From positions 2,976,001 to 3,040,000 of the forward strand of contig NZ_JBEJGX010000003.1 in assembly GCF_040253635.1 (NCBI RefSeq): 64,000 nt of DNA. The letters run 5' to 3'. The DNA comes from Streptomyces sp. Edi2 (GTDB taxonomy: Bacteria; Actinomycetota; Actinomycetes; Streptomycetales; Streptomycetaceae). The notes under the pieces were generated by a model that saw only the letters and a program-made list of their open reading frames with translations, was not told where the DNA came from and searched no databases. The position numbers were made by a program, and so were the translations under genes. Shown in pieces: positions 46,259 to 64,000 of this stretch (positions are counted from its first letter, which is position 1; each line of letters opens with the position of its first letter).

Positions 46259-47557
46259 TCAGACGAAGGCGAAGTAGCGCAGCCACACGTACAGGAGCGA
46301 CAGTGCCACCGTCGCCGCCGTGACGATCAGGCCGTACTTGGTGAACTGCCAGAAGGAGATGGGCTGGCGGTTGCGTTCGGCGATGCCGAGGACGACCACG
46401 TTGGCGGAGGCTCCGATGGCGGTGGCGTTGCCGCCGAGGTCGGCGCCGAGGGCGAGGGCCCACCACATGACGTGGTCGCTTCCGCCGCCCATGTTGTGAA
46501 CCAGGTCGCTGGTGATGGGGGCCATGGTCGCGACGTACGGGATGTTGTCGACGACGCCGGAGAGGACGGCGGAGGCGCTCAGCAACGTCATGGAGCCGGC
46601 GAGTTCGTTGGATCCGATGAGGTGGGCCAGGCCCTTGGAGATCTCGTTGATGACGCCGGTGTCGATCAGGCCACCGATCATGACGAAGAGCCCGGCGAAG
46701 AAGGCCAGGGTGGGCCACTCCACCTCGGCAAGTACGTCGCCGGTCTCGGCGGAGGAGATGGCGACGAGCAGGCCGGCGCCGAGCAGGGCGACGATGCTGG
46801 GCGCGTAGTGCAGGACCGGGTGCAGGACGAAGCCGGCCACCACCAGGGCGAGCACGATCAGGCCCTGGATCAGCAAGCGTGAGTCCTTGATGGCCTCGCG
46901 CTCCTCCAGCGCCATGATCTCAGCTGCCCGGTCCTCGTTGTAGACGAAGGTCTTGCGGAACATGACCCGGCACAGGGCAACGAGGACGGCGATCAGTACC
47001 GCCGAGAGGGGGGCGAGATGGACGAGGAAGTCGTTGAAGGTGAGGCCGGCCCGGCTGGCGATGATGATGTTGGGCGGGTCGCCGACCAGGGTCGCTATGC
47101 CGCCGATGTTGGAGGCCAGGACTTCGGCGATGAGGAACGGCGCGGCGGGCAGGGCGAGGCGTTCGCAGACGAGCAGGGTGACGGGCGCGATCAGCAGGAC
47201 CGTCGTGACGTTGTCGAGGAGCGCCGAAGCCATGGCGGTGATGACGACGAGCATGGCCATGACCCGGAACGGTTTGGCGCGGGCCCGTTTGACCGACCAG
47301 ATCGCCAGGTACTCGAACAGGCCGGTCTTCTTCAGCACACCGACGATCATCATCATGCCCATGAGCAGGAAGATGACGTTCCAGTCGATGCCGGACTCCG
47401 CGGAGTAGAACGCCGACGCATCGTCGGTCGCCCCGATCACCAGCATCAGCCCTGCGCCGCCGAGGGCCACGGCGACGCGGTGGATCTTCTCGCTGATGAT
47501 CAGGGCGTAGGCGCCGACGAACACGACGATAGCCGCCCAGCTGTGCCAGTTGTTCAC
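46259..47557 (-). CDS. NhaD/ArsB-type (SLC13-like) ion transporter
   Basis: 432 residues from GTG 47557 with GGAGG just upstream. About 11-12 membrane helices. Conserved IT-superfamily sections: LLDNVTTVLLIAPVTLL, LIAEVLASNIGGIATLVGDP then PNIII, and the repeat-related GVVDNIPYVATMAPI and LGADLGGNATAIGASANVVV. The DNVTT and GDPPN motifs are those of NhaD Na+/H+ antiporters and ArsB/P-protein relatives. Likely a sodium or organic-anion extruder. It follows a CPA antiporter gene on the same strand by 55 bases, so they may form one transcript. Confidence 0.9.
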   Translation of the reverse strand: MNNWHSWAAIVVFVGAYALIISEKIHRVAVALGGAGLMLVIGATDDASAFYSAESGIDWNVIFLLMGMMMIVGVLKKTGLFEYLAIWSVKRARAKPFRVMAMLVVITAMASALLDNVTTVLLIAPVTLLVCERLALPAAPFLIAEVLASNIGGIATLVGDPPNIIIASRAGLTFNDFLVHLAPLSAVLIAVLVALCRVMFRKTFVYNEDRAAEIMALEEREAIKDSRLLIQGLIVLALVVAGFVLHPVLHYAPSIVALLGAGLLVAISSAETGDVLAEVEWPTLAFFAGLFVMIGGLIDTGVINEISKGLAHLIGSNELAGSMTLLSASAVLSGVVDNIPYVATMAPITSDLVHNMGGGSDHVMWWALALGADLGGNATAIGASANVVVLGIAERNRQPISFWQFTKYGLIVTAATVALSLLYVWLRYFAFV

Positions 47558-47612
47558 GATCCTCCGATGAAAGGTTTCGGCCCCGGGCCCTCACGGCCCG
47601 GGCGGGGTGTCG

Positions 47613-48860
47613 TCAGCTGGGCGCACCGGCGCGAGTCTCCTTGGTGAGCGCGTGCGGGGCCGCGCCCTCGTGAGCGGCGGGGATCGCGGCCAGGTCGTCG
47701 ACGTGGAAGGCGCGGGCGATCGGTACGTCCGTGGAGCTGTGGGCGGTGATCGAGAAGGCGATGCACACGGCGATGAGCGTGAATGCCTTCTCGGCCTGGG
47801 GGATGCCGGACTGGAGCACCAGCAGGCCGTAGACCACCGACGCGAAGCCCTTCGGGCCGAACCAGGCGGCCACCAGCTTCTCCCGGCGGGGGAAGCGTGC
47901 GCCGAGCAGTGAGATCAGCAGCGAGGCCGGGCGGATGAGGACGATCGCCAGTACCACGGCCGCGTAGCCGCCCCAGGACAAGGCGCTGAAGAGCTGCGGC
48001 GTCAGCAGCGCGCCGAAGACCAGCAGCGCCGCGAACTTCGCCAGCTCCGCCAGTGCCTCGCCGAGCGGTTCGAAGGACCGCCTGGCCTCGGGCGAGACGT
48101 GGGCCAGGACCGCGCCGGCCGAGAATGCGGCCAGGTAGGGGTTGGCGTGGGTCAGGTGGCAGGTCGCGTAGAGGATGATGCTGGCGGCCAGCGGCAGCAA
48201 CGGCTGGAGTTTCGGCTCGGCGCCCAGCAGCCGGAAGCGTACGAGGCCGCCCACGACCAGGGGCAGTGTGATCCCGATGGCCAGGCCGAGCGCCAGCTCC
48301 AGCGTGATGGTGGCGAGCGATGCCTCCGCGCTGCCGGCCGTCGGGCCCGCAGCGGCGATGAGGACGAGGACGACGGGGAGGGCGAGGCCGTCGTTGATGC
48401 CGCTCTCCACGTTCAGCAGTTGCCGGAGTTTGGCGGGGACTTCGCTCCGCCCGACGATCGCCGAGGCGAATACTGGGTCGGTGGGTGCGAGGACCGCGCC
48501 CACCAGGAAGGACGTCGTCCAGTCCAGACCCGCAAGGTAGTGGGTGATCAGTGCCATGAAGACGAACGCGAGCGGCATGCCCAGGCCCAGTGCGCGAGCG
48601 GGGCTCTTCCAGTTGGCCCGCGGCTTGGGCAGCGAGACGTGCATGCCGTCGGTGAAGAGCACCGCGAAGAGCGCCAGGTCGGCCGTGACGGACACGATCT
48701 CGCTGTCGGGGGTTATGTGGATCAGCCCCAGGAAGCCGTCGCTGACGAGGGCACCGCCGAGGAGGAAGAGCAAGGACGTGGAGAGCACCGTGCGTGCCGC
48801 CAATCCCGACAGCAACACCGCCACCAGCAGTGCGGCGCCGAACACCACTACGAGCACCAT
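47613..48860 (-). CDS. CPA1-type cation/proton antiporter
   Basis: 415 residues from ATG 48860. About 12 helices with CPA motifs: ALFAVLFTDGMHVSLP, LVGAVLAPTDPVFASAIVG (the conserved T-D-P segment), LLNVESGINDGLALPVVLVL (the N-D or D-D ion site) and AWFGPKGFASVVYGLLVL. It should exchange Na+ or K+ for protons across the cell membrane. The C-terminal 35 residues are a short cytoplasmic tail with no TrkA domain. First of two tandem antiporter-type genes on this strand. Confidence 0.92.
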   Translation of the reverse strand: MVLVVVFGAALLVAVLLSGLAARTVLSTSLLFLLGGALVSDGFLGLIHITPDSEIVSVTADLALFAVLFTDGMHVSLPKPRANWKSPARALGLGMPLAFVFMALITHYLAGLDWTTSFLVGAVLAPTDPVFASAIVGRSEVPAKLRQLLNVESGINDGLALPVVLVLIAAAGPTAGSAEASLATITLELALGLAIGITLPLVVGGLVRFRLLGAEPKLQPLLPLAASIILYATCHLTHANPYLAAFSAGAVLAHVSPEARRSFEPLGEALAELAKFAALLVFGALLTPQLFSALSWGGYAAVVLAIVLIRPASLLISLLGARFPRREKLVAAWFGPKGFASVVYGLLVLQSGIPQAEKAFTLIAVCIAFSITAHSSTDVPIARAFHVDDLAAIPAAHEGAAPHALTKETRAGAPS

Positions 48861-49165: not shown

Positions 49166-49609
49166 ATGCCGGACGACTTCCCCGCTCACGAGCACCACGA
49201 GCATCGCGGACTGCCGTGGTCGGACAGCCGTCTGCTGCATCCGTTCCGTCACCGCGGCGGCGGGGCCACCTCCAGCCCGGACCACGTCATCGTGCGGCTG
49301 CCCAGGGAGGTCACGGTCGAGAACGCCGAGCGCATCCGGAAGAACCTCCAGAAGGTCCTCAGCTCCGGTCCCGCTGTCCTGGAAGTCGACCTCAGCCGGG
49401 TCACGCACCTCGACAGCGTTGGCGGGGCGGTGTTCATCACGGCGTCCAGATTGGCGTGGCAGCACGGTACGCGGGTGATTGCCACCCACGCCGGGTCTCA
49501 GGTGCGCCGCGCCCTTGGCCAGCTGGGGCTGAGGCGTGTCATCGACGTGTATGAAGGCAGCGACCCCGGCAGGGCTCCCGGTCGCCGGTCAGGAGGCGGC
49601 GAGCAGTAG
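49166..49609 (+). CDS. STAS-domain protein (anti-anti-sigma type)
   Basis: 147 residues from ATG 49166. After a His-rich N-terminus (PAHEHHEHRG) the STAS fold reads DHVIVRLPREVTVENAERIR, VLEVDLSRVTHLDSVGGAVF, ITASRLAW, VIATHAGSQVRRALGQLGL. The D-S-V-G segment is where SpoIIAA-like antagonists carry the phosphorylated Ser; here the Ser precedes V-G-G. It may bind an anti-sigma kinase encoded elsewhere. The 3' end overlaps the convergent CBS gene by 21 bases. Confidence 0.86.
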   Translation: MPDDFPAHEHHEHRGLPWSDSRLLHPFRHRGGGATSSPDHVIVRLPREVTVENAERIRKNLQKVLSSGPAVLEVDLSRVTHLDSVGGAVFITASRLAWQHGTRVIATHAGSQVRRALGQLGLRRVIDVYEGSDPGRAPGRRSGGGEQ

Positions 49610-50050
49610 CCGCTCCAGCAGATGGGAGGCGGTGATCACACCGAGCAGCCGCACGCCGCTCTCGTCCTTGTCCACGACCGCCACGAGCGGACTGCGGACC
49701 TGCGCCATCAACGCCGCGACCTCCAGAGCCGTGTCGTCAGGCGACGCAACCGGCGGCGTGGGCGCCGACCTCGACAGGCATTCCCGTACGGTACGGCCTG
49801 CCAAAGCCTGGCACAGCCGGTCCGCGTGGCGTTCGTCCACCACCGCGGCGAGCGTCGGGTCCTCCACCACATAACCGGGCACCAGGACCTTGACCATCTG
49901 GGAGGCCGGCAGGATCGCCGCCGGGGCACCCTTCTCGTCCACCACCAGCAGGCCGGGCAGCCGGTGTTCGGCCATCAGCCGGGCCGCGTCCAGGGCCTCG
50001 CTGTCGAGGCTGACCGTCTCGTATTCCACCGCCAGGTCACGTGCGCGCAC
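49589..50050 (-). CDS. Tandem CBS-domain protein
   Basis: 153 residues from GTG 50050 with AGGAG six bases upstream. Two CBS repeats: LAVEYETVSLDSEALDAARL, MAEHRLPGLLVVDEKGAPAA, and ASPDDTALEVAALMAQVRSP then LVAVVDKDESGVRLLGVITA. A Bateman pair that probably binds an adenine nucleotide and works as a soluble regulatory subunit. It converges on and overlaps the STAS gene. The AAA ATPase gene upstream on the same strand ends at 50200. Confidence 0.88.
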   Translation of the reverse strand: MRARDLAVEYETVSLDSEALDAARLMAEHRLPGLLVVDEKGAPAAILPASQMVKVLVPGYVVEDPTLAAVVDERHADRLCQALAGRTVRECLSRSAPTPPVASPDDTALEVAALMAQVRSPLVAVVDKDESGVRLLGVITASHLLERLLLAAS

Positions 50051-50199: not shown

Positions 50200-53100
50200 T
50201 CATTCGGCGTGCGGCTTGGACGCGTGCCGGGCCGTGGGGTTGGCCACCAGGTGGCGGGGGTCGGCGGCACGGGTGATGGCGGATTCGACGGCGGCGATCC
50301 GGTCGGCGAGGAGCCCGAGGGCGGCGACGGCGCGGACGACCGGGTCGTCCTCCGTGCCGCCGAGCTTCTGGGCGCGGACGTAGGCGGACTTCAGCTCCGC
50401 CCAGCGGACCGACTGTCCGGGGGTGAGGGTGTCACGCAGTTCGGCCAGTTTCAGCAGGTTGGCCTCGGCTCCGGTGGTGAGGGTCTGGGCCTCGGCCGTG
50501 TAGTGGTCACCGATGACGGCGGCGAGTTCGTCCTCGTTCATGACCGGCTGGATGCGTTGGGCGATCTTGGTCATATTGCGGTAGGAGCCCTGGAGCTGGA
50601 AGGGCGGTTCGGTCCGGGTGGCGTCAGTCTGCGCCGCGGAGGTGATGGATGCGTTGTTGACCGCCAGGACGGTGGCGCGGGCGGTGAGCAGGTGCCGTAG
50701 TGCGGCGGTGATGCGGTCCAGTTCGGCGGGGGCGTAGGGGTGTGTGAGCTGGTCGGCGCGGGCGGTGGGGTCGTCGGCGGCGAGTCGGATGAGGATGTCG
50801 AGGTCGTCGCGGTTGCGGCCGGCGAGTGGAGCCAGCACGGGGTTCGCGGTGAGGGTGTTCTCGATGAAGCTGAGGGCAAAGACCTCCTCTTTGCCGGTCA
50901 GGACGTCGCCCAGGTTCCAGACGTCGGCTCGGTTGGCGAGCATGTCGGGGACCTGGAAGCGACCGCCGGACTCGGTGTAGGGGTTGCCTGCCATGCAGAC
51001 CGCGAAGCGCTTGCCGCGCAGGTCGTAGGTGCGGGGCTCGCCGTCCCAGACCCCGTCAATGCGGCGGGTGGCGTCGCACAGCGGGATGAACTTCTGGAGC
51101 AGCTCGGGTGCGGTGTGCTGGATGTCGTCCAGGTAGAGGAGCGTGTTGTTGCCCGCCGCGAGGGCGAAGTTGATCTTTTCGATCTCCTGACGGGCAGTGG
51201 CGTTCGGAGTCTCGGCCGGGTCCAGGGAGGTGACGGTGTGGCCGAGTGCCGGGCCGTTGGCCTTGACAAGGACGAGGCCGAGGCGGTCGGCGACGTACTC
51301 CATGAGCGTCGTCTTGCCGTATCCGGGCGGGGAAATGAGCAGGAGCAGGCCGCCGGTGTCGGTGAGCTTGGCCTCGCCCGTGGTGCCGAGTTGCTTGGCA
51401 AGGTTGTCGCCGATGAGGGGGAGGTACACCTCGTCGATGAGCCGGTTGCGGACGAAGGACGACATCACCCGAGGCCGGTAGGAGTCCAGGTGGAGCCGTG
51501 AGCGCTCGGCCGCCACCAGGGCGGTGCGCCGGCGCTGGTAGGCGCGGTGGCCGGGGATGTCGTGGGTACGGAAGTCGATGGTGCGGGCGAGGAATTCGTC
51601 GATACGGATCGTGATCGCGCGGCGGGTGATCCGTGGATGGGTGCCGAGCAGTCCCTCGACGGTCTCGGTCAGCGGTGTTTCGGACTCGTAGCGCGTCAGG
51701 TCCGGGCAGAGCTCCGCGGCCACGGCCTCGGCCAGGTCACCGGCGGTGATGTCGGTGCCGGTGGCGGCGGTGTACGAGGAGAGCCACGCCTTGACCAGCT
51801 GGCGTCGTGCGGCGAGGTCGTCGAGGATGGCCAGGTCCTCGTCGTAGGCCGAAGTGCCCACCGTGCGGCGGAATTTGTCGAGCAGTGTGCGGGCGCCTGC
51901 GCTGAGGACGAACCCGTCGGGACCGGAGGTCAGCTCGTCGAAGAGGTACGCGGCGGCGGACGCTGCCTCGTCCCCGCCGATCGCGGTGGCGAGTTCCGCC
52001 TGGAATTCGGCGATCGCCGGGGCCAGGCCGAACGTCTCACGGGCGCGGGCGAGCGAGACCGCGCGACGGGCCCAGACTTCGCGGGCCTCGGCGGCCGTCC
52101 CGTGCGCCCAGAAGAGCTGAGCGGCGGCACGGGCCGCGGGCTGGTGGCGCAACAGGCCCGCGCCGTTGTGCAGTCGGAGCAGCACGGCCAGGATCGCGGT
52201 GGCATCGTGGTCGTGGATGCCGCGTTCGTAGCCCTCGTCGTACGCCTCCTCCGCGGCCTGTCGTACGAGGGCGGGCAGGTCGGCCGCCGCGAGGGCCGCC
52301 GGGCCGTGCTCGTCCAGGAGCCGGGCGGCGAGGTGTTCGGCGCGGTAGACCTCGGGCGACTCCGAGGGCAGGAGCCGGCCCCAGTACGGGCGGGTGGCGG
52401 CGAAATCCGGGTCGGTGACCGGGGAGCGGTAGTCGGTGCCGGCCAGGGCGAAGGCGAGGCCGTCGCCCTGAGGGACCAGGGTCAGGTCGAGGGGCTGGGT
52501 GTTGACGGCGAAGCGGTGGTGGCCCAGGCGGATGGTCCGGCCGTCGTCGGCGTAGAGGTCGGTGCGGTCCCGCAGGGCGCGGGATGCCTCCTGGCGGGCG
52601 GCCTTCAGGCGGCCCTCCAACTCCTCCGCCCGTACCTGGTCGCCGAGTTCACGCAGTTCCTTGGCTATGCCGCGGGCCTTGGCCACCATCGGGTCGGAGG
52701 CGAAGTAGGTGGCGACCGCGTCGGCGTCGGCGAGCGTGGCGGCCCGGCGGGCCACGGTCTCCAGGACCCGGGCCGCCGAGGCCGCGAGCTGTTCGGCGCG
52801 CCGGGAGCGTGCATCGGCGAGCGTCTGCTTGCGGGCGGAGAACGCCTCGTAGACCTCGGTGCGCTTGTCCGTCAGCTCGCCGAGGAAGTCGTCGAACTCG
52901 GCGAAGCGGGACTCCAGGTCCTCCAGTCGTACGAGCATGCGGGCCAGCTGCTCGTCGCACGCCTCCGGGGTGTCCGCGACGGCGAGCGCGCCGGTGACGG
53001 CCTGGCCCAGCAGGGCGAACTCGGCGGCGAACTCGGCGCGGCCCTCGTGGTCGAGGAGTTCGCGGCGGTGGGCATCGAGCGTGGCGCGGGCGCGGTTGGC

Positions 53101-55083
53101 CCCTCCCAGTACCTCCGCGATGCGGCCGAGGACGGACGTACGGACGGTGGCGTCGCCGATGTCGAGGCCCGCGACGACCTCGGTGACGGTCTGGAGTCCG
53201 TCGGCCAGCTCGTCGAGCCGGGCGCTGACGGGTGCGGCTTCGGCGACCGTGGTGATCGACTCCGCGTCGGCGACGAGTTGTTCGATGTCCTGGTGGTGGC
53301 CGGTGAAGGCGTCCTCGCGGGCCAGGAAGGCGATGGCGCGCTGGCCGAACGAGGCGAGGTCGGCCCCGACGTCGGCGGCGAGGTCGTCGATGCGGGTGGT
53401 GTCCGCGTACCGCAGGTCCTTGAGGGTGAGCAGATGGCCCTGGGCCTGCCGCAGTTCGGTCAGGCCCGCCACCCACGCGCTCGCGCTGCGCGGGGCCTCG
53501 CCGCGCAGGCGGCGGACCACCGACGCGATACGGTCCGCCGCCTCGCTCAGTGCATCGGCGGCCTTCCGGGTCAGTTCCTGGACGGTCTCGAACTCGCTCA
53601 GCACCTGCTCGGCGGTGGCCCGCATCGCGTCCAGCGGGGTGCGCAGATCACCCAGCTCGGCGTCAGCGAGCCAGTGATGGGTGTCCGAAGCACGGGCGCA
53701 ACCGGCCACCAGCGCCTCGTACACCTCAGTCGTCGGCTTGGTCTCGGCAACGGCGCGAGTAAGAGAGAGACAGTCGGAGAGACCGCGGACGAGGTCGGCG
53801 TTGCCCACGCGAGCCAGGGGCCCGGTGCCGACGGGCTGCGCGGCGGCGTGAGTGTCGGAGACATAGGGAGAGCGCCACAGCTGGAGCGGGTGGACGCGGG
53901 CCGGTTCGCCACCAATGCCGTGTTGCAGCACCATCAGCGTGCCATCGTCAAAGAGCGCCCAGCCGTGACAGAACAGCGGGGTGGCGACCTCCTTGCGGAT
54001 CAGGTTGTAGGGCAGCAGCAGGCTGCGGCCCTCGGCGCGCGTGTGGAAGGCGAAGAGCATGTCCTCGCCGTTGGGCGAGCGGACCACGCGCTCGAACTCC
54101 AGGCCGGTGGTGTCCGTGTCGAAGACCTTGTACGCACCCGAGGCCAGGCAGTAGCCACCCGGGAAGACGATCCCCTGGTCCTCGGGCAGGCGGCGGCACG
54201 CCTGGCCGATGCCGTCGAGGCGCACCACGGCTTTGGTGAGAGCGTTGAAGACCAGGTGGCGGTGGGCGGACTCCTTGTAGGGGCGGATCCTCAGCAGGAG
54301 GAGGTCTCCCACGCGTGCATGGGCTATCTCCGCGTCGGCGAGGGACTGGAGCGGCTCGTCCACCGGTTCGGTGTAGATCCCCTCGCCAGTCTCGGTGTCG
54401 TTCGCCACCTTGATGGTGAGGGTGCCGTTCGCCGTACCGACGAATACCTCGCCCGCGATGGAGACGTGCGGGTGGCGGCCGAGGACATGGTCCTCTCGAG
54501 TTGCCTCGGTCCACTGGAAGTCGTGCGAGGCCGGAAGGACGTGATCGCGCTCCCCGCGCGAGTCGAGGAAGGGGACCCGGCTTCCGTCGTCGGCGGCAGA
54601 CCAACGCAGCACCCGGATGTCGTCGGTCTTCTCACCGGTCTGGAAGACGGCGAGAAGCTTGCCCTCGACCCGGCGCAGCTGGAGGAGCCGGACCTCACGG
54701 TAATAGCGGTGCAGGGCGGCGAATTCCCTGACGAAAGCGGGGTCGTCGAGAAGGCCGGGAACAGCGTCCTCGTCCAGCCGGTTCAGGTCGCGGTCGTACA
54801 GCGCGAAGACCTCGCCCGGGGCGGTCTCGGACGTGGCTCCGGGCGGGGCGCCGTATCCGAACAGCAGGGCATCGCCGATGGCGACGATGTCGCGGGGCAG
54901 GCAGGTGTGCTCGGTGCGCAGCCGCTCGGTGCCGGTGAGTACGAGCCGCGTCGCCCCGAACTCCGCGGTGCGGCGGATGTTGAGTTCCTCGGCCCGGCGG
55001 GCGAGTTCGGCGGCCTGCGCGGCGAGCCGGTCGCGCAGTACCTCGTACGTACCGGTGTCCAGGCCGGTTGCCCCGGTTGACAT
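50200..55083 (-). CDS. Giant AAA ATPase of the flotillin locus (often annotated DNA repair ATPase)
   Basis: 1627 residues from ATG 55083. Residues 1-430 look beta-rich and propeller-like (VRLLQLRRVEGKLLAVFQTG, HPHVSIAGEVFVGTANGTLT). A long helical and coiled-coil middle follows (430-850; LAVADTPEACDEQLARMLVR), then a mixed region, and the AAA module: Walker A in LLISPPGYGKTTLMEYVADR (about 1251-1258), Walker B NNTLLYLDDIQHTAPE (about 1318), and CMAGNPYTESGGRFQVPDML. No nuclease or helicase motif is seen, so the DNA-repair name found in databases is not supported by the sequence. It is 76 bases downstream of an SPFH gene with a strong hairpin in between. Likely an ATP-driven remodelling machine at the membrane. 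Confidence 0.82.
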   Translation of the reverse strand: MSTGATGLDTGTYEVLRDRLAAQAAELARRAEELNIRRTAEFGATRLVLTGTERLRTEHTCLPRDIVAIGDALLFGYGAPPGATSETAPGEVFALYDRDLNRLDEDAVPGLLDDPAFVREFAALHRYYREVRLLQLRRVEGKLLAVFQTGEKTDDIRVLRWSAADDGSRVPFLDSRGERDHVLPASHDFQWTEATREDHVLGRHPHVSIAGEVFVGTANGTLTIKVANDTETGEGIYTEPVDEPLQSLADAEIAHARVGDLLLLRIRPYKESAHRHLVFNALTKAVVRLDGIGQACRRLPEDQGIVFPGGYCLASGAYKVFDTDTTGLEFERVVRSPNGEDMLFAFHTRAEGRSLLLPYNLIRKEVATPLFCHGWALFDDGTLMVLQHGIGGEPARVHPLQLWRSPYVSDTHAAAQPVGTGPLARVGNADLVRGLSDCLSLTRAVAETKPTTEVYEALVAGCARASDTHHWLADAELGDLRTPLDAMRATAEQVLSEFETVQELTRKAADALSEAADRIASVVRRLRGEAPRSASAWVAGLTELRQAQGHLLTLKDLRYADTTRIDDLAADVGADLASFGQRAIAFLAREDAFTGHHQDIEQLVADAESITTVAEAAPVSARLDELADGLQTVTEVVAGLDIGDATVRTSVLGRIAEVLGGANRARATLDAHRRELLDHEGRAEFAAEFALLGQAVTGALAVADTPEACDEQLARMLVRLEDLESRFAEFDDFLGELTDKRTEVYEAFSARKQTLADARSRRAEQLAASAARVLETVARRAATLADADAVATYFASDPMVAKARGIAKELRELGDQVRAEELEGRLKAARQEASRALRDRTDLYADDGRTIRLGHHRFAVNTQPLDLTLVPQGDGLAFALAGTDYRSPVTDPDFAATRPYWGRLLPSESPEVYRAEHLAARLLDEHGPAALAAADLPALVRQAAEEAYDEGYERGIHDHDATAILAVLLRLHNGAGLLRHQPAARAAAQLFWAHGTAAEAREVWARRAVSLARARETFGLAPAIAEFQAELATAIGGDEAASAAAYLFDELTSGPDGFVLSAGARTLLDKFRRTVGTSAYDEDLAILDDLAARRQLVKAWLSSYTAATGTDITAGDLAEAVAAELCPDLTRYESETPLTETVEGLLGTHPRITRRAITIRIDEFLARTIDFRTHDIPGHRAYQRRRTALVAAERSRLHLDSYRPRVMSSFVRNRLIDEVYLPLIGDNLAKQLGTTGEAKLTDTGGLLLLISPPGYGKTTLMEYVADRLGLVLVKANGPALGHTVTSLDPAETPNATARQEIEKINFALAAGNNTLLYLDDIQHTAPELLQKFIPLCDATRRIDGVWDGEPRTYDLRGKRFAVCMAGNPYTESGGRFQVPDMLANRADVWNLGDVLTGKEEVFALSFIENTLTANPVLAPLAGRNRDDLDILIRLAADDPTARADQLTHPYAPAELDRITAALRHLLTARATVLAVNNASITSAAQTDATRTEPPFQLQGSYRNMTKIAQRIQPVMNEDELAAVIGDHYTAEAQTLTTGAEANLLKLAELRDTLTPGQSVRWAELKSAYVRAQKLGGTEDDPVVRAVAALGLLADRIAAVESAITRAADPRHLVANPTARHASKPHAE

Positions 55084-55112
55084 GGGGTGCGGTTCCCTTC
55101 GCAAAGGTGCGG

Positions 55113-55147
55113 ACCGGAGCTGCCGTCCCCTGTGCGGCAGCTCCGGT
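55113..55147 (-). terminator. 13-bp perfect hairpin between the SPFH and AAA genes
   Basis: ACCGGAGCTGCCG (55113-55125) and CGGCAGCTCCGGT (55135-55147) with a 9-base loop. Placed 12 bases after the SPFH stop and about 30 before the ATPase start, it could lower the level of the large ATPase relative to the flotillin or stabilise the upstream mRNA. Confidence 0.75.
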
Positions 55148-55159
55148 CGACGCGGGTGA

Positions 55160-57235
55160 TCAAGCCTTGACGGTGCCGTTGGCTTCGTGGGTGCTGTTGC
55201 CGCCGTTGAGGGCGGTCAGAGGTAGGTCGGCCAGGCCCAGTTCGCCGGCCTTGTCCATCAGTTGCCGCAGCTGACCGGCGTTGGCTCCGTCTCCGGTCTT
55301 CATCAGCTTCATCAGCAGCGCGGAGACGGTCAGGTTCTGTACGTCCGCCGTCGACACCGAGCCGAGGATCCGGGCGATGTCGTCGGTGAAGCTCGCCGAG
55401 CCGTCCAGCCAGGGCTTCGCCAGGGCCTGCGCGGTCTCGGAGTGCTGGACGAAGCCGTCGACGCCCTTGCCGAGCGCGATCGAGGACACCAGCCGGTCGA
55501 AGAAGACCGACTCCCCGCCGACGATGTTGATGTCGGCGTTCTCCAGACCGGTCGCGATGACCGTGGCCTGGGCCTCGGCGACCTGGCGCTGGACGTCGAG
55601 TCCGGCCAGGCGGATCTCCTTCTCGGCCTGGATGCGCAGCCGGTACTCCTCGTGACCGCGGGACGCCTCGTCCAGCGCGGCCATCGCGGCGGCCTTCTCC
55701 GTGAGGCCCGCCGCCTCCGCCTTGAGCTTCTCGCCGATCGCCGTGGCCTCGGCCAGGGCCTTCGCCCGCACGCCCTCGGCCTCGGCGCGCAGCCGTGCCT
55801 CGGCGGCCTCCGCCTCGGCGCGGCCCGCCTTCTCGACGACCTCGGCCTCCTTGTCGCGGACCTGTACGGCCGCGAGCCCTTCCGCCGCCGACTCGGCCTG
55901 GATGCCCTCGGCGAGCCGTACCTTGGCGCGCGCGTCGAGATCGGCGGACTTCAACCGGGCCTCGGCCAGCGTCAGTTCCTCTGCGGCCCGGTGGGTGGCG
56001 GCCTGCTCGGCGGCCTCCGCGGCCTTGATGTCCTTGACCAGCTTCTCCTGCGCCTCCGCCTCGGCGGCGATGATCACTGCCTGCCGACCGCGCTCAGCCT
56101 CCTCCACAGCCCGCAGCTTCTTGATGGACTCCTCCTGCTCGGCGACCGTACGGTCCACCGCCACCCGCTCCCGGATGACCTCGGCGATCTCCCGCTTCTC
56201 CGCCTCGACCTCCTTCTCGGCGGAAATCCGGGTCAGTTGCGTCTCCCGCTCCCGGGCGATGACCTCCAGCAGGCGGTCCTTCTCGATGCGCTCGTTCTCG
56301 ACGGCGATGACCCGCTCGCGGTTCTTCGCGGCGACCGCGACCTCCCGCTCCTGGTTCTCGCGCTGCACCCCCAGCTGCTCCTCGGTGCGCAGGAACGCGC
56401 CCTGCGCCCGCAGCCGCTCCTCCTCCACCACCCGTGCCGTCTCGGCCTCCTCGCGGGCCCGTGAGGTGTCGATCTCGCGCTTCTGCTTGATCTCGGCGTC
56501 CGCCTGCCGGCGCTGCAGTTCGAGGATGGCCTCGCGGGCGTCGACGTTCTGCCGGGTGATCTCCTTCTCCTCGGTGCGCTGGAACTCGTTGGTGCGTACG
56601 TGCTCCACCGTGGTCAGCTCGGTGATCTTCCGGATGCCCTGGGCGTCGAGGACGTTGTGAGGGTCGAGCTGGCTGAGCGGCGTCTGCTCCAGGTAGTCGA
56701 TCGCCGCGTCCTCCAGGTGGTAACCGTTCAGGTCGACACCGATGAGCTCGATGATCTTGTACCGCAGCTCCTCGCGCTTGGTGTACAGGTCGGTGAAGTC
56801 CAGCTGCTTGCCAACCGTCTTGAGCGCCTCGGAGAACTTCGCGTGGAACAGCTCCTGCAACGTGCGCTGGTCGCTGGCCCGCTGCGTACCGACGGCCTGG
56901 GCGACCTTGATGACGTCCTCGACGGTCTTGTTGACCTTCACGAAGAACGAAATGCGGATGTCCGCACGGATGTTGTCCCGGCAGATCAGCCCGTCCTTGC
57001 CGGCCCGCGTGATCTCGATGGCCTTCACCGAGATGTCCATCACCTCGGCCTTGTGCAGCACCGGCAGTACGACCTGCCCGGTGAAGGTCACATCGACCTT
57101 CCGCATCTTCGAGACGATCAGTGCCTTGCCCTGCTCCACCTTGCGGAACAGGCGGGAGAAGACCAGCAGCATGCCGACGGCGGCGAGCAGGACAACGGCT
57201 ATGAGCGCACCGATGCCCACGGTGAGGGGATCCAT
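55160..57235 (-). CDS. Flotillin-like SPFH/band 7 protein (YqiK type)
   Basis: 691 residues from ATG 57235 (AAGGA upstream). One N-terminal membrane helix (about 3-26, VGIGALIAVVLLAAVGMLLV), a band 7 domain (ALIVSKMRKVDVTFTGQVVL, VNKTVEDVIKVAQAVGTQRA, FHAKFSEALKTVGKQ), then about 300 residues of Glu/Ala/Arg-rich coiled coil (RLAEGIQAESAAEGL and similar) typical of flotillins, and a compact C-terminus (SSIALGKGVDGFVQHSETA). Flotillins form large membrane scaffolds in ordered microdomains. Flanked by a YqiJ/NfeD-like gene and the giant ATPase, it is the core of this unit. Confidence 0.93.
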   Translation of the reverse strand: MDPLTVGIGALIAVVLLAAVGMLLVFSRLFRKVEQGKALIVSKMRKVDVTFTGQVVLPVLHKAEVMDISVKAIEITRAGKDGLICRDNIRADIRISFFVKVNKTVEDVIKVAQAVGTQRASDQRTLQELFHAKFSEALKTVGKQLDFTDLYTKREELRYKIIELIGVDLNGYHLEDAAIDYLEQTPLSQLDPHNVLDAQGIRKITELTTVEHVRTNEFQRTEEKEITRQNVDAREAILELQRRQADAEIKQKREIDTSRAREEAETARVVEEERLRAQGAFLRTEEQLGVQRENQEREVAVAAKNRERVIAVENERIEKDRLLEVIARERETQLTRISAEKEVEAEKREIAEVIRERVAVDRTVAEQEESIKKLRAVEEAERGRQAVIIAAEAEAQEKLVKDIKAAEAAEQAATHRAAEELTLAEARLKSADLDARAKVRLAEGIQAESAAEGLAAVQVRDKEAEVVEKAGRAEAEAAEARLRAEAEGVRAKALAEATAIGEKLKAEAAGLTEKAAAMAALDEASRGHEEYRLRIQAEKEIRLAGLDVQRQVAEAQATVIATGLENADINIVGGESVFFDRLVSSIALGKGVDGFVQHSETAQALAKPWLDGSASFTDDIARILGSVSTADVQNLTVSALLMKLMKTGDGANAGQLRQLMDKAGELGLADLPLTALNGGNSTHEANGTVKA

Positions 57236-57294
57236 GAGAGACGTCCTTGAAGCGTGAGGAAGCGGAAGTGTGAAGGGGCGCGCCGGTCCTGGAG

Positions 57295-57903
57295 TCAGGC
57301 GGCGTGGCCGCGCGGGGCTAGCGCCGCGACGTAGGGCGCGGCCCGGAAGTGCTCGCCGGTGTCGTCGTAGGCGTACAACAGCCCGGGGACGCCGTACGTC
57401 AGGGGTTCGGCGCCCGCCTGGCGCACCCGGATCGCGGATCCGTCCTGGTCGGCGACCTCGGCCCGGCGGAGGCCCGCGTCCACCTGTCCGGTGCGAAGGG
57501 TGCGGGTCAACCCGGTGAAGTTGGCTCGGGGCGGCCCGGGTTCGTCAGGGAAGAGGCGGCGCAGTGGTCCTACCAGAACCCCTGTCACACGCCACGCGCC
57601 CAGCAGCGCTGCCGCCAGAACAGCAACGCGGACCAGCGCCCGGCCCATGCCCGGCGCAACGACCGGATCCAGCAGCAAGGTCCCGGCCAGACTCACCAAC
57701 CAGGCCACCGCCGTCAGAAGGGAGAACGCGACCACGACCGGCACCCCGCCCATCCCCCAGGCATCGAGGTCCGCGTCCGAGTCAAAAGCGTCGGGCGTGG
57801 TCACGCCAACGGCGACCAGCAGCCAGAAGGCCACAACCACGCCCAGAGCGGCCGTGAACACGAGGGTGGGAAAGCCGGCGGCAGCCATAAGAAACGTCCC
57901 CAT
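57295..57903 (-). CDS. YqiJ/NfeD-like membrane protein with C-terminal OB-type domain
   Basis: 202 residues from ATG 57903 with GGGAGG upstream. Three membrane segments (PTLVFTAALGVVVAFWLLVA, VPVVVAFSLLTAVAWLVSLA, ALVRVAVLAAALLGAWRVTG) and a beta-rich soluble end (RTLRTGQVDAGLRRAEVADQ, AIRVRQAGAEPLTYGVPGLL, YAYDDTGEHFRAAP) that fits the OB fold of YqiJ/NfeD proteins. Such proteins are routinely encoded beside flotillins and interact with them at the membrane. First gene of the minus-strand unit; 59 bases before the SPFH start. Confidence 0.78.
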   Translation of the reverse strand: MGTFLMAAAGFPTLVFTAALGVVVAFWLLVAVGVTTPDAFDSDADLDAWGMGGVPVVVAFSLLTAVAWLVSLAGTLLLDPVVAPGMGRALVRVAVLAAALLGAWRVTGVLVGPLRRLFPDEPGPPRANFTGLTRTLRTGQVDAGLRRAEVADQDGSAIRVRQAGAEPLTYGVPGLLYAYDDTGEHFRAAPYVAALAPRGHAA

Positions 57904-57998
57904 GCCCGCCCTCCCCGATCGTCCTGTTCCGGTCCGTGCCCGCGCTGTGCCCCGCCCCGTGCGGCAGCCAGGGGAGACGGCCCGCGACACCCCCTACC

Positions 57999-58089
57999 TG
58001 CCGGTATCCGGCATCGGGACCGTCCCCTGTGCTCCCCCACGACCATCCTGCCCCCACCCGCACCCCACCCGCATTGCCGGTTTCCGGCA
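57999..58089. promoter_or_regulatory. Two TGCCGG-N3-CCGGCA palindromes upstream of the PucR gene
   Basis: TGCCGGTATCCGGCA at 57999-58013 and TGCCGGTTTCCGGCA at 58075-58089 have identical 6-bp arms and lie 76 bp apart in the 259-base region shared by the flotillin unit and the PucR gene. They are the best operator candidates for the adjacent PucR regulator. Confidence 0.65.
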
Positions 58090-58162
58090 GTCTTCATTAG
58101 GGTCTTCATGCCAGGTTGCCGCTAAGAAGGCGTCACCGGCGCGTCAAGAAACCGGGGGAACT

Positions 58163-59221
58163 GTGGCGGAGTGCGAGATACCTGAGGACTATCTGGCGGG
58201 CTACGCGCAGATCCTGGCCGACGTCTCATCCACCGGCCGCCGACTGAGCCGCGACGAGATCACCTCCCGCCGCGCTCTCGGAGAACAGGCCGCCGAAGCC
58301 GGACTCGGTCTCCGCTCCCTGGTCAACGGGCACCTCACCGCCACCCGCACCGCCTGGCCCGCCTACCCCACCTCGACGGACAGCGTGCTCGCCGCCGTGC
58401 AGCAGGCCATCGACGCCTTCGCCGAGGGCTACGAGCGCGCCCAGCACCTGGCCGTACGCCAGGAGGAAGCCGCCCGCCGCGAGTTCATCGACGACCTCCT
58501 CTACGGCCGAAGCGACCTCGGCCGCCTCGCCGAGCGCGCCGAACGCTTCGGCTTGCGCCTCTCCCACGCCCACGCGGTCGCCGTGGCCCAGGGACCGGCC
58601 GCGTACGACGAGGGTGACGCGGTGCTGCGCCGGGTCGAGCGGTCCCTCATCGCCCGGTTCGGCGACCGCAGCATTCTGCTGACCACCAAGGGCGGGCGCA
58701 TGCTGTGCATCGCGCCCGGCGACCAGGACGAGATCCTCCTCCACTTCGCCAAACAGGCGTACGCGGCCACGGACGGCGGCCGGGTCGCCATCGGCCGCCC
58801 CCAGCCGGGCCCCGGCGGCGTCGTCCAGTCGTACGAGGAGGCCCTCAACACCCTGGACCTCGCCGACCGCATGGAGCTCGACGACCCGGTGCTGCGCGCC
58901 GCCGACCTGCTCGTCTATCCCGTCCTCACCCGCGACCGGCAGGCCATGGCCGACCTGGTCCACAGCGCACTCGGCCCACTCACCGCCGCCCGCGGCGGAC
59001 CCCAGCCCCTGCTGGACACCCTCACCGCCTACTTCAACTCCGGCTGCATCGCCGCCGAAGCCGCCCGCCGTCTCTCCCTCAGCGTGCGCGCCCTGACCTA
59101 CCGCCTGGAACGCATCCACACCCTGACCGGCGCCAACCCCGCCGACCCCGACCACCGCTACATGCTCCAGACCGCGGTGATCGGTGCCCGGCTGCTCGAC
59201 TGGCCGGCCAAGGCGCCGTGA
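58163..59221 (+). CDS. PucR/CdaR-family transcriptional regulator
   Basis: 352 residues from GTG 58163 with GGGGGAA just upstream. The N-terminal part resembles RsbRD/PucR input domains (PEDYLAGYAQILADVSSTGR, FAEGYERAQHLAVRQEEAAR), the centre is a GGDEF-like PucR fold (GRMLCIAPGDQDEILL, VVQSYEEALNTLDLADRM) and the C-terminal HTH is canonical (LLDTLTAYFNSGCIAAEAAR, RLSLSVRALTYRLERIHTLT). Divergent from the YqiJ-flotillin-ATPase unit, with paired palindromes between, so it probably controls that unit. Confidence 0.9.
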   Translation: MAECEIPEDYLAGYAQILADVSSTGRRLSRDEITSRRALGEQAAEAGLGLRSLVNGHLTATRTAWPAYPTSTDSVLAAVQQAIDAFAEGYERAQHLAVRQEEAARREFIDDLLYGRSDLGRLAERAERFGLRLSHAHAVAVAQGPAAYDEGDAVLRRVERSLIARFGDRSILLTTKGGRMLCIAPGDQDEILLHFAKQAYAATDGGRVAIGRPQPGPGGVVQSYEEALNTLDLADRMELDDPVLRAADLLVYPVLTRDRQAMADLVHSALGPLTAARGGPQPLLDTLTAYFNSGCIAAEAARRLSLSVRALTYRLERIHTLTGANPADPDHRYMLQTAVIGARLLDWPAKAP

Positions 59222-62984: not shown

Positions 62985-64000
62985 TCAGGTGGTGGCGGGT
63001 GTGTGGAGCACGCGCAGGGCGCTTTGGTGGGTGAGCCAGCCCAGGAGGTGGTCCTTGTCCGGGTCGAGGACGGGCAGTCCGGTACCGGGTGCGGCGACCA
63101 GGACGTGCAGGGCGGTGGACAGCGGCATGTCGGCGGTGACGGGTGGAGTCGTTTCGGCGAGGTCCCCAGCGACGGCCGGCGGTGTGGTGTCGACGTCGGG
63201 GCGTTCGGCGAGCGCCTCGGCCACGGCGCGGGCCGTGAGTGTGCCCAGATAGCGACCTTCGGCGTCGACGACGGGTAGCGCACCGTGATCGGACAGGCGC
63301 ACGAGGTCTCCCGCTTCCGAGAGCTCGGTGGCAGCCGGCAGCGGTGCGGGAGCCCCCTCCATGACCGATCCCACGATCTGCGTGCCGAGTTTGGCTCCGG
63401 GGGCCGGTGCGTTCAGGTCGATGCCCCGGCGGCGGAGCTTGAGGGTGTAGATGGTGTCGTGGGAGAGAAGTCGGCTGGTGAGGGTGGCCAGGACGATGGC
63501 GAGCATCAGCGGCAGGATGATCGAGTACTGGCCGGTGAGTTCGAAGAGGATGACGACGGCCGTGATGGGGGCCCGTGAGGCCCCGGCGAAGACGGCACCC
63601 ATACCGACCAGCGCGTAGGCACCGACGGCACCTGCGGTACCGGGCATCAGGTGGTGGGTGGTGGCACCGTACGCGGCGCCGAGCATGGCGCCGATGAAGA
63701 GGCTGGGGGCGAAGACGCCGCCGGAGCCGCCGATGCCGATGGTCAGGCTGGTGGCAAGGATCTTGCCGACGAGCAGGAGCAGCAGGAATCCGGCGACGTA
63801 CCCGCCGTGGGCGGCCTCCTCCAGTACGGGGTAGCCGACCCCGTACATCTCGGGCAGCACCAGCAGGACGAGGCCGAGGAGCAGGCCACCGGCAGCCGGG
63901 CGCAGCCATTCGGGGCCGCGCCAGGCCCAGTCGCAGGCGTCCTCGATCCAGTACAGGATCCGGGTGAAGCCGACGCCGACGGCTCCCGCAAGCACCCCGA
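62985..64000 (-). CDS. ClC-type chloride channel or antiporter with CBS pair, partial
   Basis: The gene runs off the window; about 337 C-terminal residues are seen. ClC marks: GIGGSGGVFAPSLFIGAMLG (second selectivity segment) and ALVGMGAVFAGASRAPITAV then VILFELTG. After the last helix come two CBS repeats (LVRLSDHGALPVVDAEGRYL, and PLSTALHVLVAAPGTGLPVL). The outward helices with the first Ser-Pro filter are missing because of the edge. Exchanges chloride for protons or conducts chloride, possibly under nucleotide control through the CBS pair. Confidence 0.92.
   Translation of the reverse strand, partial: GVLAGAVGVGFTRILYWIEDACDWAWRGPEWLRPAAGGLLLGLVLLVLPEMYGVGYPVLEEAAHGGYVAGFLLLLLVGKILATSLTIGIGGSGGVFAPSLFIGAMLGAAYGATTHHLMPGTAGAVGAYALVGMGAVFAGASRAPITAVVILFELTGQYSIILPLMLAIVLATLTSRLLSHDTIYTLKLRRRGIDLNAPAPGAKLGTQIVGSVMEGAPAPLPAATELSEAGDLVRLSDHGALPVVDAEGRYLGTLTARAVAEALAERPDVDTTPPAVAGDLAETTPPVTADMPLSTALHVLVAAPGTGLPVLDPDKDHLLGWLTHQSALRVLHTPATT

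Follow-up and report, generated by a model that had tools for sequence, protein, structure and literature searches.

The function of bacterial flotillins is still open, in part because deletions can show little, as is the case in P. aeruginosa (PMC13086221, available portion). The closest described system is a gene neighbourhood of a band-7 protein, YqiJ and an AAA+ ATPase, for which the available text of Ravi et al., 2024 (PMC11237479) proposes a role in membrane dynamics; CesT/Tir-PspA operons with this unit and PspA-free 'abbreviated operons' are both described there. Here, a 64,000-nt stretch of the 9.8-Mb genome of Streptomyces sp. Edi2 was analysed (contig NZ_JBEJGX010000003.1; hereafter the window, to whose positions all coordinates refer), and the unit found in it, composed of a YqiJ-like membrane protein, a flotillin and a 1627-residue ATPase, is an instance of the abbreviated form. 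The components of the published unit (a flotillin-type band-7 protein, an AAA+ ATPase with propeller and coiled coil, and a YqiJ/YuaF-like protein) are all present, whereas a PucR-type gene is linked here and PspA is not; the CesT/Tir-PspA dyad is not present at the window's unit. A sequence-only reading of the window had arrived at a membrane-remodelling machine on a flotillin platform, which is not new as put, the same three proteins and the membrane-dynamics proposal being already in Ravi et al. The arrangement itself is thus published, and what is new here are the co-occurrence counts, the MoxR-like fold of the ATPase and the C-terminal mark of the flotillin; the main text of Ravi et al., as available, does not contain the word MoxR, co-occurrence counts or the flotillin C-terminus. 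No experiment on the unit or functional description of it was found in the literature within reach, which left out most subscription journals and preprints.

The three genes form a single minus-strand run in the order YqiJ/NfeD-like membrane protein (57295..57903, 202 aa), flotillin-like (SPFH) protein (55160..57235, 691 aa) and giant AAA+ ATPase (50200..55083, 1627 aa, ATG start), with intergenic gaps of 59 and 76 bases. The unit was recovered from records of Actinomycetota, Pseudomonadota, Deinococcota and Bacteroidota and is therefore not a chance arrangement; the grouping made from the letters alone is real. The first set of loci consisted of the window and 85 others. Of these 86, 84 had a flotillin gene directly upstream of the ATPase gene and in the same orientation; the remaining two (L014 and L062) end too soon, and L014 still shows a flotillin C-terminus. 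A second set comprised 32 loci, 6 of them overlapping the first set, 20 drawn from one phylum of large genomes and the rest from named records. Flotillin was linked in 30 of these; YqiJ-like and flotillin genes were located 12.4 kb upstream of the ATPase in the genome of L147, and a flotillin ~91 kb from it in that of L150. An ATPase mostly lacking an SPFH partner had been named as the outcome that would speak against the sequence-only reading, and the opposite was obtained.

Co-occurrence, which had been suggested as a check, was counted in two genome samples. Among 199 Streptomyces genomes (one set; close flotillin defined as E up to 1e-25), 107 had a DUF3686 match and 106 a close flotillin: both were present in 106, the ATPase match only in 1, flotillin only in 0 and neither in 92. 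The single ATPase-only case (G390) is a match of 30 positions, below the cut-off. Among 372 genomes of a second phylum (that of G485), with the flotillin line set by us at 240 bits or more, both were present in 94, ATPase only in 1, flotillin only in 2 and neither in 275. The ATPase-only genome (G662) has a contig that begins just upstream of the ATPase, and the two flotillin-only genomes are a fragment and a 3.3-kb contig. Fisher p values were 4e-57 (Streptomyces) and 4e-85 (second phylum), both overstated, as relatives are not independent. ATPase and flotillin distances had a correlation of 0.76 across 75 actinobacterial loci; the highest value in 500 permutations was 0.19. A chance neighbourhood was ruled out by this co-occurrence. 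Two Streptomyces genomes (G123 and G172) were observed to carry two separate ATPase copies each, with a flotillin match beside every copy; one ATPase frame of G123 (622 aa open) and the flotillin matches of G172 are short, and some copies may be broken.

The ATPase was matched by PF12458 DUF3686 (644 bits, residues 26-470), by DUF7902 (residues 591-675) and weakly by AAA families (residues 1247-1370). Predicted structures place a beta-propeller at the N-terminus (residues 44-406; 53866..54954, minus strand), a long helical region in the middle (residues ~420-835, including DUF7902; 52579..53826, minus strand; modelled to residue 700 and from 820) and an AAA+ module towards the C-terminus (residues 1196-1552; 50428..51498, minus strand). 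The propeller-like front and C-terminal AAA module read from the sequence are thereby backed; where a long coiled coil had been named, the predicted structures show long helices. In a fold comparison of the predicted structure, the AAA+ module lay nearest to MoxR-type remodelling ATPases, CbbQ and NorQ, among the matches listed; RuvB was not among the 50 in that comparison, an absence that excludes nothing, and Foldseek does list RuvB. Motif counts over 111 sequences were 111 for PPGYGKT (Walker A; residues 1252-1258; 51310..51330, minus strand), 106 for DDIQH, 103 for GNPYTE, 103 for ANRA and 89 for QGSYRN. From the alignment, we take Walker A, Walker B, sensor 1 and the arginine finger all to be intact, and QGSYRN to be sensor 2. 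A further strongly conserved motif, EGY..GIHDHDA, was observed in the helical part outside the AAA module (residues 950-961; 52201-52236), with its HD.DA core in 103/111 sequences.

Database names describe this protein as a DNA repair ATPase: the Pfam text for DUF3686 reads 'ATPase involved in DNA repair', and the closest named relatives among the matches listed are Streptomyces proteins mostly so called. A RuvB-like repair motor, for which these Pfam and NCBI names and a weak P-loop similarity to RuvB can be cited (Pfam E 0.001, NCBIfam 5e-4, Foldseek E 2.7e-5), is nevertheless the most improbable of the explanations considered here. The similarity in Pfam and NCBIfam covers ~36 residues and scores 18-19 bits, below cut-offs of 27 and 282-299; no nuclease, helicase, DNA-binding or other DNA-processing family exceeded its cut-off in the ATPase, in agreement with the sequence-only reading; and the tight flotillin partnership is a further argument against repair. 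The pairing with flotillin points to a putative machine that is driven by ATP and acts at the cell membrane, and away from a DNA-repair role. The widely used name is unsupported here and probably misleading. No recognised protease domain was found in the ATPase either.

The flotillin has a hydrophobic N-terminal segment and a long charged region, as read from its sequence. A Pfam scan of the whole protein gave no match, whereas its first 240 residues alone matched Band_7 at 41.7 bits (SPFH/Band_7 domain, residues 32-175; 56711..57142, minus strand), as did a genome-wide search; annotation pipelines may overlook flotillins like the 55160-57235 protein. A C-terminal region (residues 560-691; 55163..55558, minus strand) is common to ATPase-linked flotillins. 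A profile of it, built from actinobacterial loci, was applied to 34 linked flotillins that had not gone into it (four of them likewise actinobacterial) and matched 33. The comparison group was 11 flotillins from genomes in which no ATPase was detected: 8 complete but distant proteins, a fragment, E. coli YqiK and L180. Ten of them lacked the region; the sole positive was L180, which lies on a 3.3-kb contig. The C-terminus of human flotillin stabilises its cage, according to the available part of PMC11260169, and by analogy the region in linked flotillins may serve as a cap or as a docking site.

The YqiJ-like protein gave nothing over cut-off in Pfam. A profile of 30 relatives matched E. coli YqiJ (E 3.5e-5, probability 72%), DUF1449 is the annotation both of E. 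coli YqiJ and of the counterpart in Hymenobacter, and Pfam NfeD was matched by only 1 of the 30 relatives (E 0.0078). Of the three identities, the YqiJ-like one is the least secure. The gene was found in 90/110 loci; 13 of the 20 negative loci were checked, and 12 of these 13 had no upstream open reading frame with at least two transmembrane segments. The ATPase and flotillin thus form the core, with YqiJ optional.

Over DNA repair or defence, we favour a membrane scaffold that has an AAA+ remodeller of its own, and an SPFH scaffold whose own MoxR-type motor remodels membrane proteins or complexes is, on balance, probable. The gene order, the co-occurrence, the predicted domain folds, the conserved ATPase motifs and the special flotillin C-terminus were observed; binding, cage, hexamer, clients, regulation and a role in stress are inferred. 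The N-terminus of the flotillin would anchor it in the membrane, and the protein would form a large ring or cage, as other SPFH proteins do, with optional help from the YqiJ-like protein. Recruitment of the ATPase, presumed to be a hexamer-forming MoxR-type AAA+ protein, would most likely run through its propeller or long helical part and the flotillin C-terminal region. At the membrane, the motor would spend ATP on unfolding, rebuilding or disassembling its clients, be they single proteins or complexes. Envelope or ion stress may be the condition of use. A more specific version, offered tentatively and judged possible rather than probable, is a motor-driven flotillin cage, in which the MoxR-type ATPase docks on the special cap at the C-terminus of a flotillin subfamily dedicated to it, as a second SPFH/AAA+ machine beside FtsH-HflK/C, and rebuilds or frees membrane proteins with no degradation.

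Several observations weigh against the favoured interpretation. For the AAA+ module, NorQ and CbbQ came below RuvB chains and an MCM chain in the Foldseek ranking, and sequence searches placed the module by its P-loop region only, nearest to Rix7, RuvB and p97-type proteins. Walker B usually reads DE, and here it is DDI (residues 1319-1321; 51121-51129), with DD instead. MoxR ATPases usually have a VWA partner, and VWA was not among the 25 families listed of 149 for the 101 neighbours of eight loci. Flotillins also occur without the ATPase: at E up to 1e-25, flotillin was found in 120/372 second-phylum genomes, of which 24 extra ones hold only distant flotillins (93-115 bits) and no ATPase match, so that with these counted 26/372 have flotillin without ATPase, as does E. 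coli. Co-occurrence and distance correlation would also follow from joint inheritance. The linked flotillin of L008 did not match the C-terminal profile, and most flotillins without the ATPase are members of a subfamily further removed (28-33% identity); the C-terminal difference may therefore be subfamily drift.

An alternative suggested in direction by Ravi et al. is remodelling of the PspA/ESCRT-III type, in which a flotillin-recruited ATPase would act on PspA filaments as Vps4 acts on ESCRT-III. It fits the Hymenobacter locus, where Tir-PspA lies directly upstream of the unit, and the megaplasmid pQBR103 (L008), where the unit ends a same-strand run with YjfI, PspA, rhomboid, DUF2491, DUF350, DUF1190 and glutathionylspermidine-synthase-type genes, with YjfI-PspA upstream; it also fits the published CesT/Tir-PspA operons (PMC11237479, available text) and the single PspA encoded ~0.66 Mb away in the window's genome. 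It is rather unlikely all the same: PspA was linked in only 2/111 loci (with a narrow profile, which initially missed the window genome's own PspA and may miss distant ones), the AAA module ranks nearest to MoxR types, and a D. actinosclerus plasmid record had no PspA match (plasmid only; the chromosome was not searched). PspA as a general partner was set aside on the linkage count.

Flanks were surveyed within 10 kb in three groups: 38 loci from Streptomyces whose flanks were complete, 22 from other actinobacteria, and 40 control stretches at places chosen by us. PucR-type genes were found in 29/38, 0/22 and 0/40, respectively. That of the window (58163..59221, plus strand, 352 aa, GGDEF_2 and HTH_30) is divergent from the three-gene run, across a spacer that presumably holds the promoters (57904..58162, unstranded); a consensus scan of the spacer, of the sigma-70 type only, gave none. 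The earlier placing of the unit under a PucR regulator therefore holds as to adjacency, and control of the unit by the divergent regulator, which would act as its switch, is probable in Streptomyces. On the other side, a small CBS-domain gene (49589-50050) lies 3' of the ATPase on the same strand, and a longer open reading frame overlaps the ATPase stop at 50203; CBS relatives were found in 5/38 Streptomyces loci and 0/40 controls. A STAS-domain gene (49166-49609, plus strand) is convergent to the CBS gene, and a Na+/H+ exchanger, an ArsB/NhaD-type transporter and a CLC channel flank the unit (46259-48860 and 62985-63995).

Maturation or protection of Na+/H+ and K+ transporters at flotillin platforms, at least in Streptomyces, would account for the exchanger, ArsB/NhaD-type transporter, CBS protein and CLC channel of the window. 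Relatives of ion transporters (antiporter, NhaD/ArsB, Trk, NhaA) were found within 10 kb in 12/38 Streptomyces loci and 1/40 controls (Fisher p 6e-4; related genomes are not independent), but in 0/22 other actinobacterial loci. Gene positions and strands vary, the queries were picked after inspection of the window and two plasmid loci, and neither osmotic nor alkaline shock is reported to induce YqiK of E. coli (unpublished data in the available part of Hinderhofer et al., 2009; PMC2636767). We regard this explanation as distinctly unlikely.

Anti-phage defence, which the sequence-only reading had held possible, could draw on the patchy presence of the unit (106/199 Streptomyces; DUF3686 in 9/296 Actinomycetota and 0/14 control genomes) and on its occurrence in 12 plasmid records, some chromosome-sized. 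PADLOC matches to the ATPase were weak, with four in the P-loop (best E 0.006) and a fifth in the helical part (E 0.85), and neighbours gave scattered generic families, the commonest in 4/101 open reading frames (101 of eight non-Streptomyces loci, out of 204 called in 12 loci; no control set). Every neighbour cluster beyond YqiJ and PucR was confined to at most 10/84 loci. A role in defence is accordingly very improbable. A defence island was rejected on the neighbour matches. A phage or virus origin was likewise rejected, with no match in 50,697 phage records and 68 stretches of viral_contigs that matched a pattern, 0 of them confirmed. E. coli islands were also discarded as a location (3,900 bases of a Proteus gene matched nothing in 20,395 E. 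coli records).

For a flotillin subfamily seldom seen apart from one large ATPase, there is a specific partner to study, a possible contact region and an activity that can be measured; the tight pairing, together with the MoxR-like fold and the C-terminus of the flotillin, makes the mechanism directly testable. Compared with known systems, the unit resembles E. coli yqiJ-yqiK in its gene order, YqiJ-like before flotillin, and the SPFH parts share 30% identity over 200 residues; it differs in that yqiJ-yqiK has no adjacent ATPase gene and a different flotillin C-terminus, DUF3686 not being found in the E. coli control genome. The S. aureus FloA-NfeD pair is likewise an operon of flotillin and NfeD and stabilises unfolded proteins, but is reported as ATP-independent, with no dedicated ATPase mentioned in the available part of PMC11222466. 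CbbQ and NorQ, the nearest folds to the AAA+ module among the matches listed, are chains of ~230-270 residues, NorQ being complexed with the VWA domain of NorD, whereas here the module is fused to a propeller and a long helical part and no VWA partner was noticed. HflK/C-FtsH pairs an SPFH cage with an AAA+ protease (PMC11260169, available part); FtsH is a membrane protease, whereas the partner here is a large protein with a MoxR-like module and no recognised protease domain, so that by analogy the unit would resemble the FtsH-HflK/C pairing minus the protease.
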